Below, in pieces: positions 7,476 to 11,751 of a stretch of DNA of 64,000 bases; positions within the stretch are counted from its first letter, which is position 1; each line of letters begins with the position of its first letter. The stretch comes from Colwellia sp. (lineage in GTDB: Bacteria > Pseudomonadota > Gammaproteobacteria > Enterobacterales > Alteromonadaceae): assembly GCA_013215655.1 (NCBI GenBank), contig JABSOX010000002.1, forward strand, positions 37,125 to 101,124, read 5' to 3'. A model generated the notes under the pieces. That model did no database searches. It saw nothing but the letters and a program-made list of their open reading frames with translations, and was not told the origin of the DNA. Both the position numbers and the translations under genes were made by a program.

Positions 7476-7973
7476 TTAAACTCGCAACGCTTTTTCACCA
7501 CGCGCAATACCTACGCAGCCAGAGCGTACTGCTTCGATGATCTCGGTTTCATTGCTGAGTGTTTCAACAAAAGCATTAAGCTTTTCGGCGTCCCCAGTGA
7601 GTTGAATGGTATAAACCTGTTTACCAATATCAATGATAGAACCTCTAAAAATATCAGTAATACGTTTAACTTCAGTGCGTGATTTATCATTCATTGCCAG
7701 TACTTTTATTAATATCAATTCACGTTCAACATGTTTTCTCTCGGTTAAATCAGTAATTTTAATAACATCAATTAACTTGTTTACTTGTTTGACAATTTGC
7801 TCGAGGATTTTATCATCACCTCTGGTTGCTATGGTGATCCTCGATAAACTTGCATCTTCTGTTGGTGCTACCGTTAAGCTTTCAATATTAAAAGCACGTT
7901 GTGAAAATAATCCGACAATACGAGATAGCGATCCCGGTTCATTTTCTAATAATATGGCTAATATACGACGCAT
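7476..7973 (-). CDS. ilvH: Acetolactate synthase 3, small regulatory subunit
   Basis: A 165-residue IlvH. It starts [26 protein letters not shown], the ACT-domain signature that binds valine and gives feedback inhibition of acetohydroxyacid synthase; a C-terminal ACT-like domain (about residues 80-160) completes the usual two-domain form. Length is normal. The start codon directly abuts ilvI (its last base is shared with position 7973), so the two subunits are translationally coupled. Expression is expected to follow the leader-peptide attenuator upstream of ilvI. Confidence 0.97.
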   Translation of the reverse strand: MRRILAILLENEPGSLSRIVGLFSQRAFNIESLTVAPTEDASLSRITIATRGDDKILEQIVKQVNKLIDVIKITDLTERKHVERELILIKVLAMNDKSRTEVKRITDIFRGSIIDIGKQVYTIQLTGDAEKLNAFVETLSNETEIIEAVRSGCVGIARGEKALRV

Positions 7974-9697
7974 TATGCTTTTACTCCTTTTTTTATCAAC
8001 ATGTCATCGATTGCTCCATGGCGAATTTGCATTGGATAAACATGTTCTTTTTCATCAACTAAAACATCAACAAATACTAAGCGCTTTTTAATAGCGAACG
8101 CTTGCTCAAGCTTCTCATCTAACTCATCAATGTGATCGATTTTAATACCTACGTGACCATAAGACTCCGCCAGTTTAATAAAGTCAGGTAAAGACTCCAT
8201 ATAAGATGATGAGTGGCGGCCGCCGTATACCATGTCTTGCCATTGACGAACCATGCCTAATGAACGGTTATTTAGGGTGACAATTACAACAGGTAAATTA
8301 TATTGCAGACACGTTGATAACTCTTGAATATTCATTTGAATAGAGCCGTCGCCGGTGATACAAATTACATGACTATCAGGGAAAGCGAGTTTTACGCCCA
8401 TCGCTGCTGGTAAACCAAAGCCCATGGTGCCTAATCCTCCAGAGTTAATCCACTGGCGAGGTTTGGCAAACGGATAATATTGTGCAGCAAACATTTGATG
8501 TTGACCTACATCCGAGCATACATAAGCCTCACCTTTGGTAATACGATACATAACTTCAATGACATGTTGTGGTTTTATTTTATCGCCGTCTTTTGAATAA
8601 CTGATGCTTTTAACCGCTCGCCATTCGTTAATTTGTTGCCACCAAGTATTTAAAGCCTCTGCATTAGGGCTATAGTCTGTGGTTTTTAATTCATCGAGTA
8701 ATTGTTGAATAACAATATCAAGCAAACCAACAATAGGCACATGAGCGTTGATAGTTTTTGATATGGAGGTGGGATCAATATCAACATGAATAATGGTAGC
8801 GTCAGGGCAGAACTTTTTAACGTTATTAGTAACACGATCGTCAAAACGTGCGCCAAGCGCTAAAATCACATCAGCATTAGCCATCGTTTTGTTAGCTTCA
8901 AGACTACCGTGCATACCTAACATGCCGATAAAGTTTTTATGAGTCCCGGATAAACCACCTAAGCCCATTAATGTATTGGTACAAGGGGCATTTAGTTTTT
9001 CAACAAGTTCAGTTAATAATTCAGAGGCGTCAGCTATAACGATACCACCACCTGAATATACAACTAAACGTTTAGCGGCACTTATGGTTTTAACTGCTTT
9101 GCGAATTTGTTTAATGTGACCTTTTGCTGATGGATTATACGAACGCATCTTTACATCAGTGGTTATTTGATATTCGCCTTTGTTTTGTGGGATTAACAAG
9201 TCTTTGGGCAATTCAACAACAACGGGTCCTGGTCGACCCGTTTTAGCGATATAAAACGCTTTGGCAATAATGTTTGGGATGTCTTCAAGGCGGCGACAAT
9301 TAAAACTATGCTTAACGATAGGACGAGTACAGCCAACAATATCGGTTTCTTGAAATGCATCATCGCCAATAAGTGTTGTTGCAACTTGTCCGGCCAAGAC
9401 CACCATAGGAATCGAGTCCATATAAGCGGTGGCAATACCTGTTACACAGTTTGTTGCCCCAGGTCCTGATGTGGCTAAAACAACGCCAACCTTACCTGTC
9501 GCTCGGGTATAACCGTCAGCCATATGTGTTGCCGCTTGCTCATGACGAACAAGAATATGCTCAAAATCATCTTGTTGAAATATTGCATCGTAAATATCCA
9601 ATACTGAACCACCGGGGTAGCCAAATACGTATTTTACATCGAGTGCTGAGAGGGCTTTTACCACCATTTCGGCACCGGTAAATAATTGAGCAGTCAT
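7973..9697 (-). CDS. ilvI: Acetolactate synthase 3, large catalytic subunit
   Basis: A 574-residue ThDP-dependent enzyme that condenses two pyruvates to acetolactate, or pyruvate with 2-ketobutyrate, the first common step of Val, Leu and Ile synthesis. Visible features are the N-terminal PYR domain with the catalytic Glu in [14 protein letters not shown], a central FAD-binding domain, and the C-terminal PP domain with the GDGS...NN thiamine-diphosphate motif ([19 protein letters not shown], ending at VTLNN). Length and order with ilvH match the classical ilvIH operon. Upstream lies a leader peptide and attenuator on the same strand. Confidence 0.97.
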
Positions 9698-9740
9698 GAG
9701 AATATCCTTTGTTAACTCTAATATAATTAATTATTAAATA

Positions 9741-9776
9741 ATAAAAAACCCTCGGTCTTATGCAGAGCGAGGGTTT
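9741..9776 (-). terminator. ilvIH attenuator (intrinsic terminator)
   Basis: On the minus strand AAACCCTCG pairs with CGAGGGTTT, followed by a run of U (TTTTTTATT). It lies between the leader-peptide stop and ilvI. The 5' arm contains CCTCGC, which can alternatively pair with GCGAGG inside the leader ORF (plus-strand 9821-9826). This gives the mutually exclusive terminator/antiterminator arrangement expected for ribosome-mediated attenuation. Confidence 0.85.
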
Positions 9777-9801
9777 GTTGTTTTAGTTTGTTTATTTGCT
9801 T

Positions 9802-9897
9802 TTATCTTACACAACACCAGCCTCGCAATGGTTTGAGAACCACGACGACAGAGAGGACTTTATTGAGTGAAATGTTGAGTAAAATTTTGTGCATCAT
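9802..9897 (-). CDS. ilvIH leader peptide (31 aa)
   Basis: A short ORF missing from the track, starting ATGATG at 9897 and ending TAA at 9802. It encodes 31 residues unusually rich in branched-chain amino acids: HKILLNISLNKVLSVVVVL contains four consecutive valines and many Leu and Ile. It ends 26 nt before the attenuator stem. Scarcity of charged Val, Leu or Ile tRNA should stall the ribosome at the control codons, free GCGAGG (within codons 24-26) to pair with the terminator 5' arm, and allow ilvIH transcription. This mirrors the ilvB and ilvGMEDA leaders of enterics. No strong Shine-Dalgarno is visible, only an A-rich AAAAAGA. Confidence 0.85.
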   Translation of the reverse strand: MMHKILLNISLNKVLSVVVVLKPLRGWCCVR

Positions 9898-9957
9898 TAT
9901 ATGCTGTAATCTTTTTAATAAACTTGTTAACGGAAATACAAATAAACTTATGCTGTA

Positions 9958-9986
9958 TTTTTAAAGGGTTTAACTAAATCTGTCAA
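9958..9986 (-). promoter_or_regulatory. Putative ilvIH promoter
   Basis: On the minus strand a perfect TTGACA (9986-9981) is followed after 17 nt by TAAAAA (9963-9958) as a weaker -10. Predicted transcription would start about 55 nt before the leader peptide. The rest of the gap to 10203 shows nothing further except a weak open frame listed under rejected items. Confidence 0.5.
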
Positions 9987-10203
9987 CTAATAAATACAAA
10001 TAAAAACTTATAGCTAATAACAAACTTAAAAAAGGCATTGGTTTCTGCAAGATAAAGTACTATAAACATGACGAAAAATGCCAATAAACTAATAAAGCAT
10101 ATGGGTACAGTTAGTTTCAACACTATAATTTTACGCCATTATTACGCAAAAAAAAATGGATGGCTTACACTCAATAGTAATGTGATTCTAATAAATTGGT
10201 TTT

Positions 10204-11751
10204 ATGTCAAATTTCCTCTTCAAAGATGAGCCGGAAGATAATTCAACTGCTCCAACAAAAAATCAAAAAGTTTGGAGGATTTTAGTGGTTGATGATGATG
10301 AATCTGTTCATCAAGTCACCAAGTTAGTATTGTCGGATGCAAATATAGAACATCGTTCTTTAGAGATTGTTTCTGCGTATTCATGTATTCAAGCTCAGGA
10401 AATCCTTAAAGGTGACGATTCTTTTTGTATGGCATTTGTTGATGTGGTGATGGAAACTGACCATGCAGGTTTAGAATTAGTAGAATGGATTCGAAAAGAC
10501 TTAAAAAACCAAGCAATACGTTTGATTTTAAGAACTGGGCAGGCGGGTAATGCGCCTGAATCAAGAGTCATTAAAGAATTTGATATTAATGATTATAAGG
10601 AAAAAACAGATTTTACTTCCGGAAAAATGATCACCACGGTCTATGCAAGTATTAGAGCTTACCGCGATATTATGACCATTCAAAAAAGCTTAGACGGTTT
10701 TAAAAAGCTGATTGAAGTTACTCACGATTTATTGAAAATTGATCAATTTAAATTATTTGGCTCCGCCGCATTAAACCATTTATTAACCTTGATGGATGTT
10801 GAAAGTTCCGCTTTATATATTGCTCGTAATCAATTTGATTTTAATCACGAGTGCAGCAATATGATTATTGCTTGTACTGGGAAATATGTCAGTGAATCAG
10901 ATAACCTCGACACATCAAATATTGACGAAGCGGTAAAAGTGCAAATTAAGAGAGTATTTGAAGATAAAAAACATTATTTAAGTGAAGAGTGTTTTGTTGG
11001 TTATTATAAAACAGCAAATAACTCATGTTCAGTGTTATATATTGATTTTGAAGATAACCCTGAGCATTTTAAGCTAAATTTAGTGGAAATGTTTGCTAAT
11101 AATGTTGCCTTGATATTAGAAACATTGACCAAGCTGCACGACATGGAAAATAGTCAAAAAGAGTTAATGTACATCGTTGGTGAGGCTATTGAAGCACGAG
11201 AAGAAGCCAAAGGCTCTCATGTTAAACGAGTAGCTTTGATTTGTGAGTTATTGGCGAAAAAACTATCTCTTGATAGTCAGTTTGTTAGTGCAATTCGTTT
11301 GGCTGCACCCTTACATGATATTGGCAAAATAGCGATACCGGATGAGATCTTAAGAAAACATGGCAAGCTTGATGAAAACGAATGGCAAGTTATGAAAACT
11401 CATGCTGAAGTTGGCTGTGATTTACTTGAACAGTCAAAAACAAGCATCTCTAAATTGGCAGCTAAGATTGCTCATTTTCATCATGAAAATTGGGACGGTA
11501 GTGGTTACCCAGATGCTTTAGCCGGTAATGACATTCCTATTGCAGCACGCATTATGGCCATCGCCGATGTTTTTGACTCACTAGGTTCAAAGCAGTGTTA
11601 TAAAGACTCTTGGGGTGAAGATGATATTAAAGCGCATTTATTAAAAGAGCGGAACAATAAGTTTGATCCGCAATTGGTCGATATTTTTATAGAGCACTTT
11701 GATGAATTTTCCAATATACGAGTTAATTACCCAGATAAGAAAAAGAACTAA
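10204..11751 (+). CDS. Response regulator with receiver, DUF3369 and HD-GYP domains
   Basis: A 515-residue predicted cyclic-di-GMP phosphodiesterase. Residues ~25-155 form a receiver (VVDDDESVH acidic pocket; phospho-acceptor Asp in AFVDVVMET; Lys in YKEKTDF). Residues ~170-310 resemble the DUF3369 sensory domain. Residues ~320-500 are HD-GYP, with LHDIGKIAIPD, HHENWDGSGYP and ARIMAIADVFD, all key residues present. The partner histidine kinase is not adjacent, though the hybrid kinase at 58.9-60.1 kb has a very similar receiver. The stop overlaps the convergent yfbR stop by 4 bases. Confidence 0.93.
   Translation: MSNFLFKDEPEDNSTAPTKNQKVWRILVVDDDESVHQVTKLVLSDANIEHRSLEIVSAYSCIQAQEILKGDDSFCMAFVDVVMETDHAGLELVEWIRKDLKNQAIRLILRTGQAGNAPESRVIKEFDINDYKEKTDFTSGKMITTVYASIRAYRDIMTIQKSLDGFKKLIEVTHDLLKIDQFKLFGSAALNHLLTLMDVESSALYIARNQFDFNHECSNMIIACTGKYVSESDNLDTSNIDEAVKVQIKRVFEDKKHYLSEECFVGYYKTANNSCSVLYIDFEDNPEHFKLNLVEMFANNVALILETLTKLHDMENSQKELMYIVGEAIEAREEAKGSHVKRVALICELLAKKLSLDSQFVSAIRLAAPLHDIGKIAIPDEILRKHGKLDENEWQVMKTHAEVGCDLLEQSKTSISKLAAKIAHFHHENWDGSGYPDALAGNDIPIAARIMAIADVFDSLGSKQCYKDSWGEDDIKAHLLKERNNKFDPQLVDIFIEHFDEFSNIRVNYPDKKKN

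Follow-up and report, generated by a model that had tools for sequence, protein, structure and literature searches.

A predicted valine/leucine-responsive attenuator upstream of ilvIH in Colwellia and related gammaproteobacteria

The ilvIH operon in the stretch of Colwellia sp. DNA analysed here (64,000 nucleotides, referred to below as the window) is preceded by what, by all the sequence evidence, appears to be a genuine ribosome-mediated attenuator. Ribosome-mediated transcription attenuation via a leader peptide is a textbook type of mechanism, and we consider it very probable that ilvIH is controlled in this manner; the conclusion rests on the anatomy, conservation and covariation of the leader, from which a response of read-through to amino-acid supply would follow. 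The elements lie on the minus strand in the canonical order: leader ORF, 1:2 hairpin, antiterminator segments, terminator, ilvI (Table 1). Transcription would start from the promoter near 9957, and RNA polymerase would make the leader. When Val-tRNA, and probably also Leu-tRNA, is charged, the translating ribosome would clear the Val/Leu codons, reach the stop codon and cover segment 2; segments 3 and 4 would then form the terminator and transcription would end before ilvI. Under a shortage of Val or Leu, the ribosome would stall on the GTC/GTG/GTT/CTC run and block segment 1, leaving segment 2 (GCGAGG...TGTTGT) free to pair with segment 3 (ACAACA...CCTCGC), so that the terminator would be prevented and ilvIH transcribed. 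Segment 3 sits in both the 2:3 and the 3:4 helices, which are mutually exclusive.

Table 1. Features of the ilvIH locus in the window
Feature	Coordinates	Strand	Details
Candidate sigma70-like promoter of the leader transcript	9957..9986	-	TTGACA (at 9986), 18 nt, AAAAAT (ending 9957)
Leader peptide ORF MMHKILLNISLNKVLSVVVVLKPLRGWCCVR	9802..9897	-	31 codons; second ATG at 9894; stop codon 9804-9802
Regulatory codons GTC GTC GTG GTT (Val x4)	9838..9849	-	Read from sequence; overlap segment 1
1:2 hairpin	9828..9843	-	GTGGTT (9843-9838), loop CTCA, AACCAT (9833-9828)
Segment 2, antiterminator 5' half	9811..9826	-	GCGAGG (9826-9821) + TGTTGT (9816-9811)
Segment 3, antiterminator 3' half	9767..9781	-	ACAACA (9781-9776) + CCTCGC (9772-9767); overlaps terminator 5' arm
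Intrinsic terminator 3:4	9743..9776	-	Stem AAACCCTCG (9776-9768)/CGAGGGTTT (9754-9746), inner 3-bp TCT/AGA, U tract 9748-9743
ilvI, acetolactate synthase 3 large subunit, controlled gene	7973..9697	-	NCBIfam PRK06466, 986 bits, above cut-off
ilvH, acetolactate synthase small subunit	7476..7973	-	NCBIfam PRK11895, 218 bits, above cut-off

An earlier note on this DNA had described a minus-strand leader ORF of 31 codons at 9897-9802, followed by a U-tract terminator, and both lie exactly where it had placed them. It had also called the peptide dominated by Ile, Leu and Val. This holds for Val and Leu, with six codons each, but not for Ile, with only two. The ORF gives a weak match to the NCBIfam "ilv operon leader peptide" model PRK10424 (E 0.011, below its cut-off), has a ribosome-binding site that by eye looks weak, and ends 104 nt before the start of ilvI; its Val codons are overlapped by the stem of the 1:2 hairpin (GTGGTT/AACCAT). 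The candidate promoter matches the consensus at 10 of 12 positions, a score that in the scan alone is not above chance, similar sites being frequent here; by eye, a TTGACA...TTAAAAAT-like element occupies the equivalent spot in most relatives. The region 9950-9735 folds with z = -4.0, none of 200 shuffles being as good. A simple terminator scanner did not call the terminator, most likely because its stem has a mismatch and a large loop. A search of 9600-10200 against Rfam 15 found no family at its gathering score, the best being ohsC_RNA (28.6 of 50) and His_leader (23 of 49). The divergent neighbour (10204-11751, plus strand) encodes a response-regulator-like protein with an HD phosphohydrolase-type domain, whose NCBIfam matches to a NosR-family c-di-GMP phosphodiesterase model fall below the cut-off.

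Pair covariation was assessed on a MAFFT alignment (A1) of 24 leaders. The hairpin of TGGTT/AACCA type that had been proposed near the Val codons is present at 9843-9828 and covaries: five of its seven alignment pairs are changed on both sides, and cognate arms pair better than non-cognate ones (0/20000 permutations as good). The terminator shows compensatory changes in 7 of 12 pairs, with 92% of cells paired. Of the 19 pairs that make up the 1:2 and 3:4 helices together, 12 are changed on both sides, where shuffles average 5.4 (0/500 as high), and sliding the partner by one column lowers the proportion of paired cells from 87% to 55-57%.

For the antiterminator the result is divided. In the window, segments 2 and 3 form a duplex of -18.2 kcal/mol, and across 25 loci the extended 2:3 pairing is specific to cognate partners (mean -15.2 versus -12.8 kcal/mol for non-cognate; 0/20000 permutations as good, the permutations ignoring relatedness and the segment 2 anchors having been set by hand). 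The GCGAGG/CCTCGC core, which the earlier note had taken as the antiterminator and for which it had suggested looking for covariation in relatives, is conserved, but its six base pairs (79% paired) show no covariation beyond column shuffles. The outer 2:3 helix taken alone gives P 0.0007, compared with P 0.83 for an unrelated-region control and P 0.03 for a reversed-sequence control; the latter value indicates that part of the outer signal is compositional. Support for a 2:3 antiterminator, as judged from these comparisons, is thus good but weaker than that for 1:2 and 3:4. In loci L005-L008 the core antiterminator is weakened (-2.7 to -4.9 kcal/mol) and the outer helix is retained; the cores there read ATGGCG, GCGGAG or ACGGAG against CCTCGC, and the L005 leader ends ...KPLWRWCCV.

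A simple ensemble calculation, with segments masked to mimic ribosome positions, behaves largely as the mechanism would predict. If segment 1 is masked before segment 4 has been synthesised, 2:3 has a probability of 0.84 in the window (mean 0.81); masking segment 2 gives the terminator a probability of 1.0. Once segment 4 is present, the terminator wins at equilibrium in nearly all sequences, including the window, as expected for a decision made during transcription. A weak point of the model is that, in the window, the 1:2 hairpin alone does not keep GCGAGG from 2:3 pairing: with no ribosome and before segment 4 is made, 2:3 has a probability of 0.82.

The arrangement is a property of a clade rather than of a single genome. 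The earlier note had held that loss of the leader frame and of its BCAA codons among relatives would count against it; both features, together with the terminator, precede ilvI at all the loci examined from Colwellia, Thalassomonas, Thalassotalea and Pseudoalteromonas. Viewed by protein similarity, all sampled loci whose IlvI is at least 73% identical carry a leader ORF with a Val/Leu/Ile codon run followed by a terminator. Another 24 relatives share the leader ORF, the 1:2 hairpin and the terminator, which places the attenuator beyond chance; examples of their ilvIH leaders are NVVLVVVVIVKSLRG, NLVLFVVVIVKSPRG and TLVVLVLVLVVSPAG. Mean column identity in the leader alignment is 61%, yet the BCAA codon run is preserved. 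The other sampled loci, with IlvI of 62-68% identity, lack such a leader. By taxon, ilvI is without an attenuator in Alteromonas, Paraglaciecola, Psychrosphaera, Shewanella, Vibrionaceae, enterics and Pseudomonas.

A covariance model, R1, built from 24 ilvIH leaders only, matches every leader-bearing locus among L001-L080, with 45.9-133.6 bits; at the leader-less loci of that set, nothing convincing was matched upstream of ilvI. Over 399 genomes of the family, its best 30 matches, taken as loci (80-87% identity, plus the window itself), all lie directly upstream of ilvI. Beyond the order, a class-wide search gave few matches and weak ones, most of which we took as noise or unrelated; of three that were inspected, one lies before a gene resembling acetolactate synthase (39% identity) and the other two before genes of other kinds. 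A separate observation concerns a contig labelled Kangiellaceae (L040:1480-1599), in which an attenuator is present with an IlvI of 69% identity, at the base of the attenuated clade. Its leader lies about 230 nt from ilvI, compared with the usual 77-134 nt, and transfer, deep ancestry or mis-binning are possible readings.

It is worth considering what else such a region might do. E. coli ilvIH is activated by Lrp (reviewed in PMC6123439), and the genome encodes an Lrp orthologue (PRK11169, 286 bits, cut-off 233); Lrp could therefore be the main regulator here as well, the leader and terminator being minor or vestigial. Across such divergence, however, a vestigial leader would not keep its run of BCAA codons, the covariation of its helices and a terminator of this strength, and we regard this reading as improbable. 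Control by Lrp does not rule out attenuation, nor the reverse, and, the orthologue being present, both may act on ilvIH. One could also envision that the region serves chiefly as a terminated sRNA or a small peptide acting in trans, in the way of rnTrpL/peTrpL of Sinorhizobium. The terminated leader would be an sRNA about 200 nt long, and there are known cases of attenuator-derived sRNAs that act in trans, such as Sinorhizobium rnTrpL (PMC10117765). In the clade, however, the leader always lies directly upstream of ilvI, and what is conserved is the BCAA codons and the alternative pairings, as cis control requires; a predominantly trans-acting role is accordingly very improbable. Chance, in the form of a random small ORF before a plain terminator, for instance that of an upstream transcript, can be dismissed: small ORFs do turn up often within 250 nt of any sequence, and the promoter scan says little by itself, but the nearest upstream gene is divergent, so that no upstream transcript needs a terminator at 9776-9743, and chance would account neither for the clade-wide conservation and covariation nor for the way in which the presence of the attenuator coincides with a single IlvI clade.

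Ribosome-mediated attenuation remains the preferred reading for ilvIH, and the same genome offers material for comparison. Searching it with R1 gave three strong sites, upstream of ilvIH, of an ilvG-type gene and of leuA. The ilvG-type site (G000:C53:48585-48710, L156) precedes a second acetolactate synthase and has the leader MAKSFSSIIINILVVVIIKSSRGCLLS; the third (G000:C73:113570-113693, L157), with the leader MTYFISTLSILLLVLTIRG, precedes a gene that we take, from its N-terminal sequence, to be leuA. Only two acetolactate-synthase large-subunit matches were found in the genome, ilvI and the ilvG type. The three attenuators are predicted to differ in what they sense: Leu for leuA, Ile/Val for ilvG, and Val/Leu for the Ile-poor ilvIH leader. 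Ile accounts for 46% of I+L+V in nine same-clade ilvG leaders and for 13% in 24 ilvIH leaders, with complete separation between the two sets; the ilvIH leaders contain on average 1.6 Ile, 5.5 Val and 5.0 Leu. Their poverty in Ile makes them resemble the ivbL leader of E. coli, where Val and Leu occur but Ile is absent.

Codon choice in the leaders is likewise unusual. Across 24 leaders (the window and 23 relatives), Val is encoded by GTC in 48% of cases and Leu by CTC in 36%, compared with 14% and 6%, respectively, in the long ORFs of the window; the enrichment has a nominal P < 1e-18, to be read with the relatedness of the leaders and the constraint of RNA stems on some codons in mind. According to theory, the codons used for regulation are those that respond sensitively when an amino acid becomes limiting (PMC1183508). 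The GTC/CTC bias fits this view, without amounting to a test of it.

How the ilvIH attenuator arose can be approached through the IlvI phylogeny. We placed 107 IlvI proteins on a quickly made maximum-likelihood tree, rooted at its midpoint. A single change, on a branch supported by SH-aLRT 99, suffices there to explain attenuator presence; the closest attenuator-less rows are a Psychrosphaera record, G028 and G038. Some of the attenuator-less neighbours are on long branches and near-copies help the clustering, and one gain is the simplest reading of this distribution, short of proof. A VVVI-KS-RG pattern is common to ilvIH and ilvG leaders, which suggests that the former may have been copied from the latter; a nucleotide tree of the leaders, on which descent of ilvIH leaders from ilvG leaders might be seen, is poorly resolved. 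It is tempting to speculate that the attenuator originated once, in the ancestor of Colwellia, Thalassotalea and Pseudoalteromonas, by copying of the ilvG module, that sensing then shifted from Ile/Val to Val/Leu, and that ilvIH thereby assumed the role that ilvBN and ivbL have in E. coli. We hold this full scenario tentatively, at somewhat short of an even chance.

Among known systems, the ilvL/ilvGMEDA attenuator of E. coli shares with the one described here a BCAA leader peptide, the 1:2/2:3/3:4 layout and an acetolactate synthase operon as its target. R1 matches the ilvL attenuator of E. coli K-12 (41.9 bits, E 2.8e-7), as it does ilvG leaders of Colwellia's and other families, and the ilvL peptide (MTALLRVISLVVISVVVIIIPPCGAALGRGKA) has a Val-Val-Val run in common with the ilvIH leader. 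In contrast to the latter, ilvL controls ilvG and not ilvI, and its peptide is richer in Ile; the attenuator of the window adjoins ilvI, the ilvG copy lying elsewhere in the genome. By leader composition, the nearest analogue is E. coli ivbL/ilvBN, where a Val/Leu-only leader with a Val run (MTTSMLNAKLLPTAPSAAVVVVRVVVVVGNAP) likewise precedes an acetolactate synthase operon. The gene is a different one (ilvB), however, and R1 finds no match there, so that ivbL and the ilvIH leaders are not visibly homologous as RNA. E. coli ilvIH itself, the orthologous target, is controlled by Lrp, and R1 finds nothing upstream of E. coli ilvI.

The earlier note had considered an attenuated ilvIH noteworthy against the Lrp-controlled operon of E. 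coli. The attenuator reading is supported, but the contrast is tempered by the Lrp orthologue present here too, and there is a precedent in Caulobacter crescentus, whose ilvIH is subject to transcription attenuation through a leader CDS (PMC4117421). These bacteria are distant, and the likeness is one of mechanism, with no claim of homology. BCAA attenuators had also been predicted in Shewanella and other proteobacteria (PMC3223726). Given the Caulobacter case and the earlier predictions, neither this type of control nor its application to ilvIH is without precedent. BCAA attenuators in proteobacteria were reportedly also surveyed by Vitreschak et al. in 2004. Our literature search, which did not cover that survey, found no description of a gammaproteobacterial ilvIH attenuator, of its single gain or of its Val/Leu tuning, and no paper that connects attenuation of ilvI with either Colwellia or Pseudoalteromonas. 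What is new here is the gammaproteobacterial branch of ilvIH attenuators, with its apparent single origin and its tuning to Val and Leu.

R1 provides a covariance model for ilv attenuators where Rfam had no match; it recognises the attenuators of ilvIH and ilvG as well as that of E. coli ilvL, and a general family for ilv attenuators could be constructed. For the bacteria themselves, the picture is one of an orthologous ilvIH operon that is attenuated in one gammaproteobacterial lineage and not in close sister lineages. Being limited to a lineage and having a single apparent origin, the attenuator offers a testable example of attenuator gain, and the divergence of its amino-acid specificity from that of a sister attenuator in the same genome is testable here as well.
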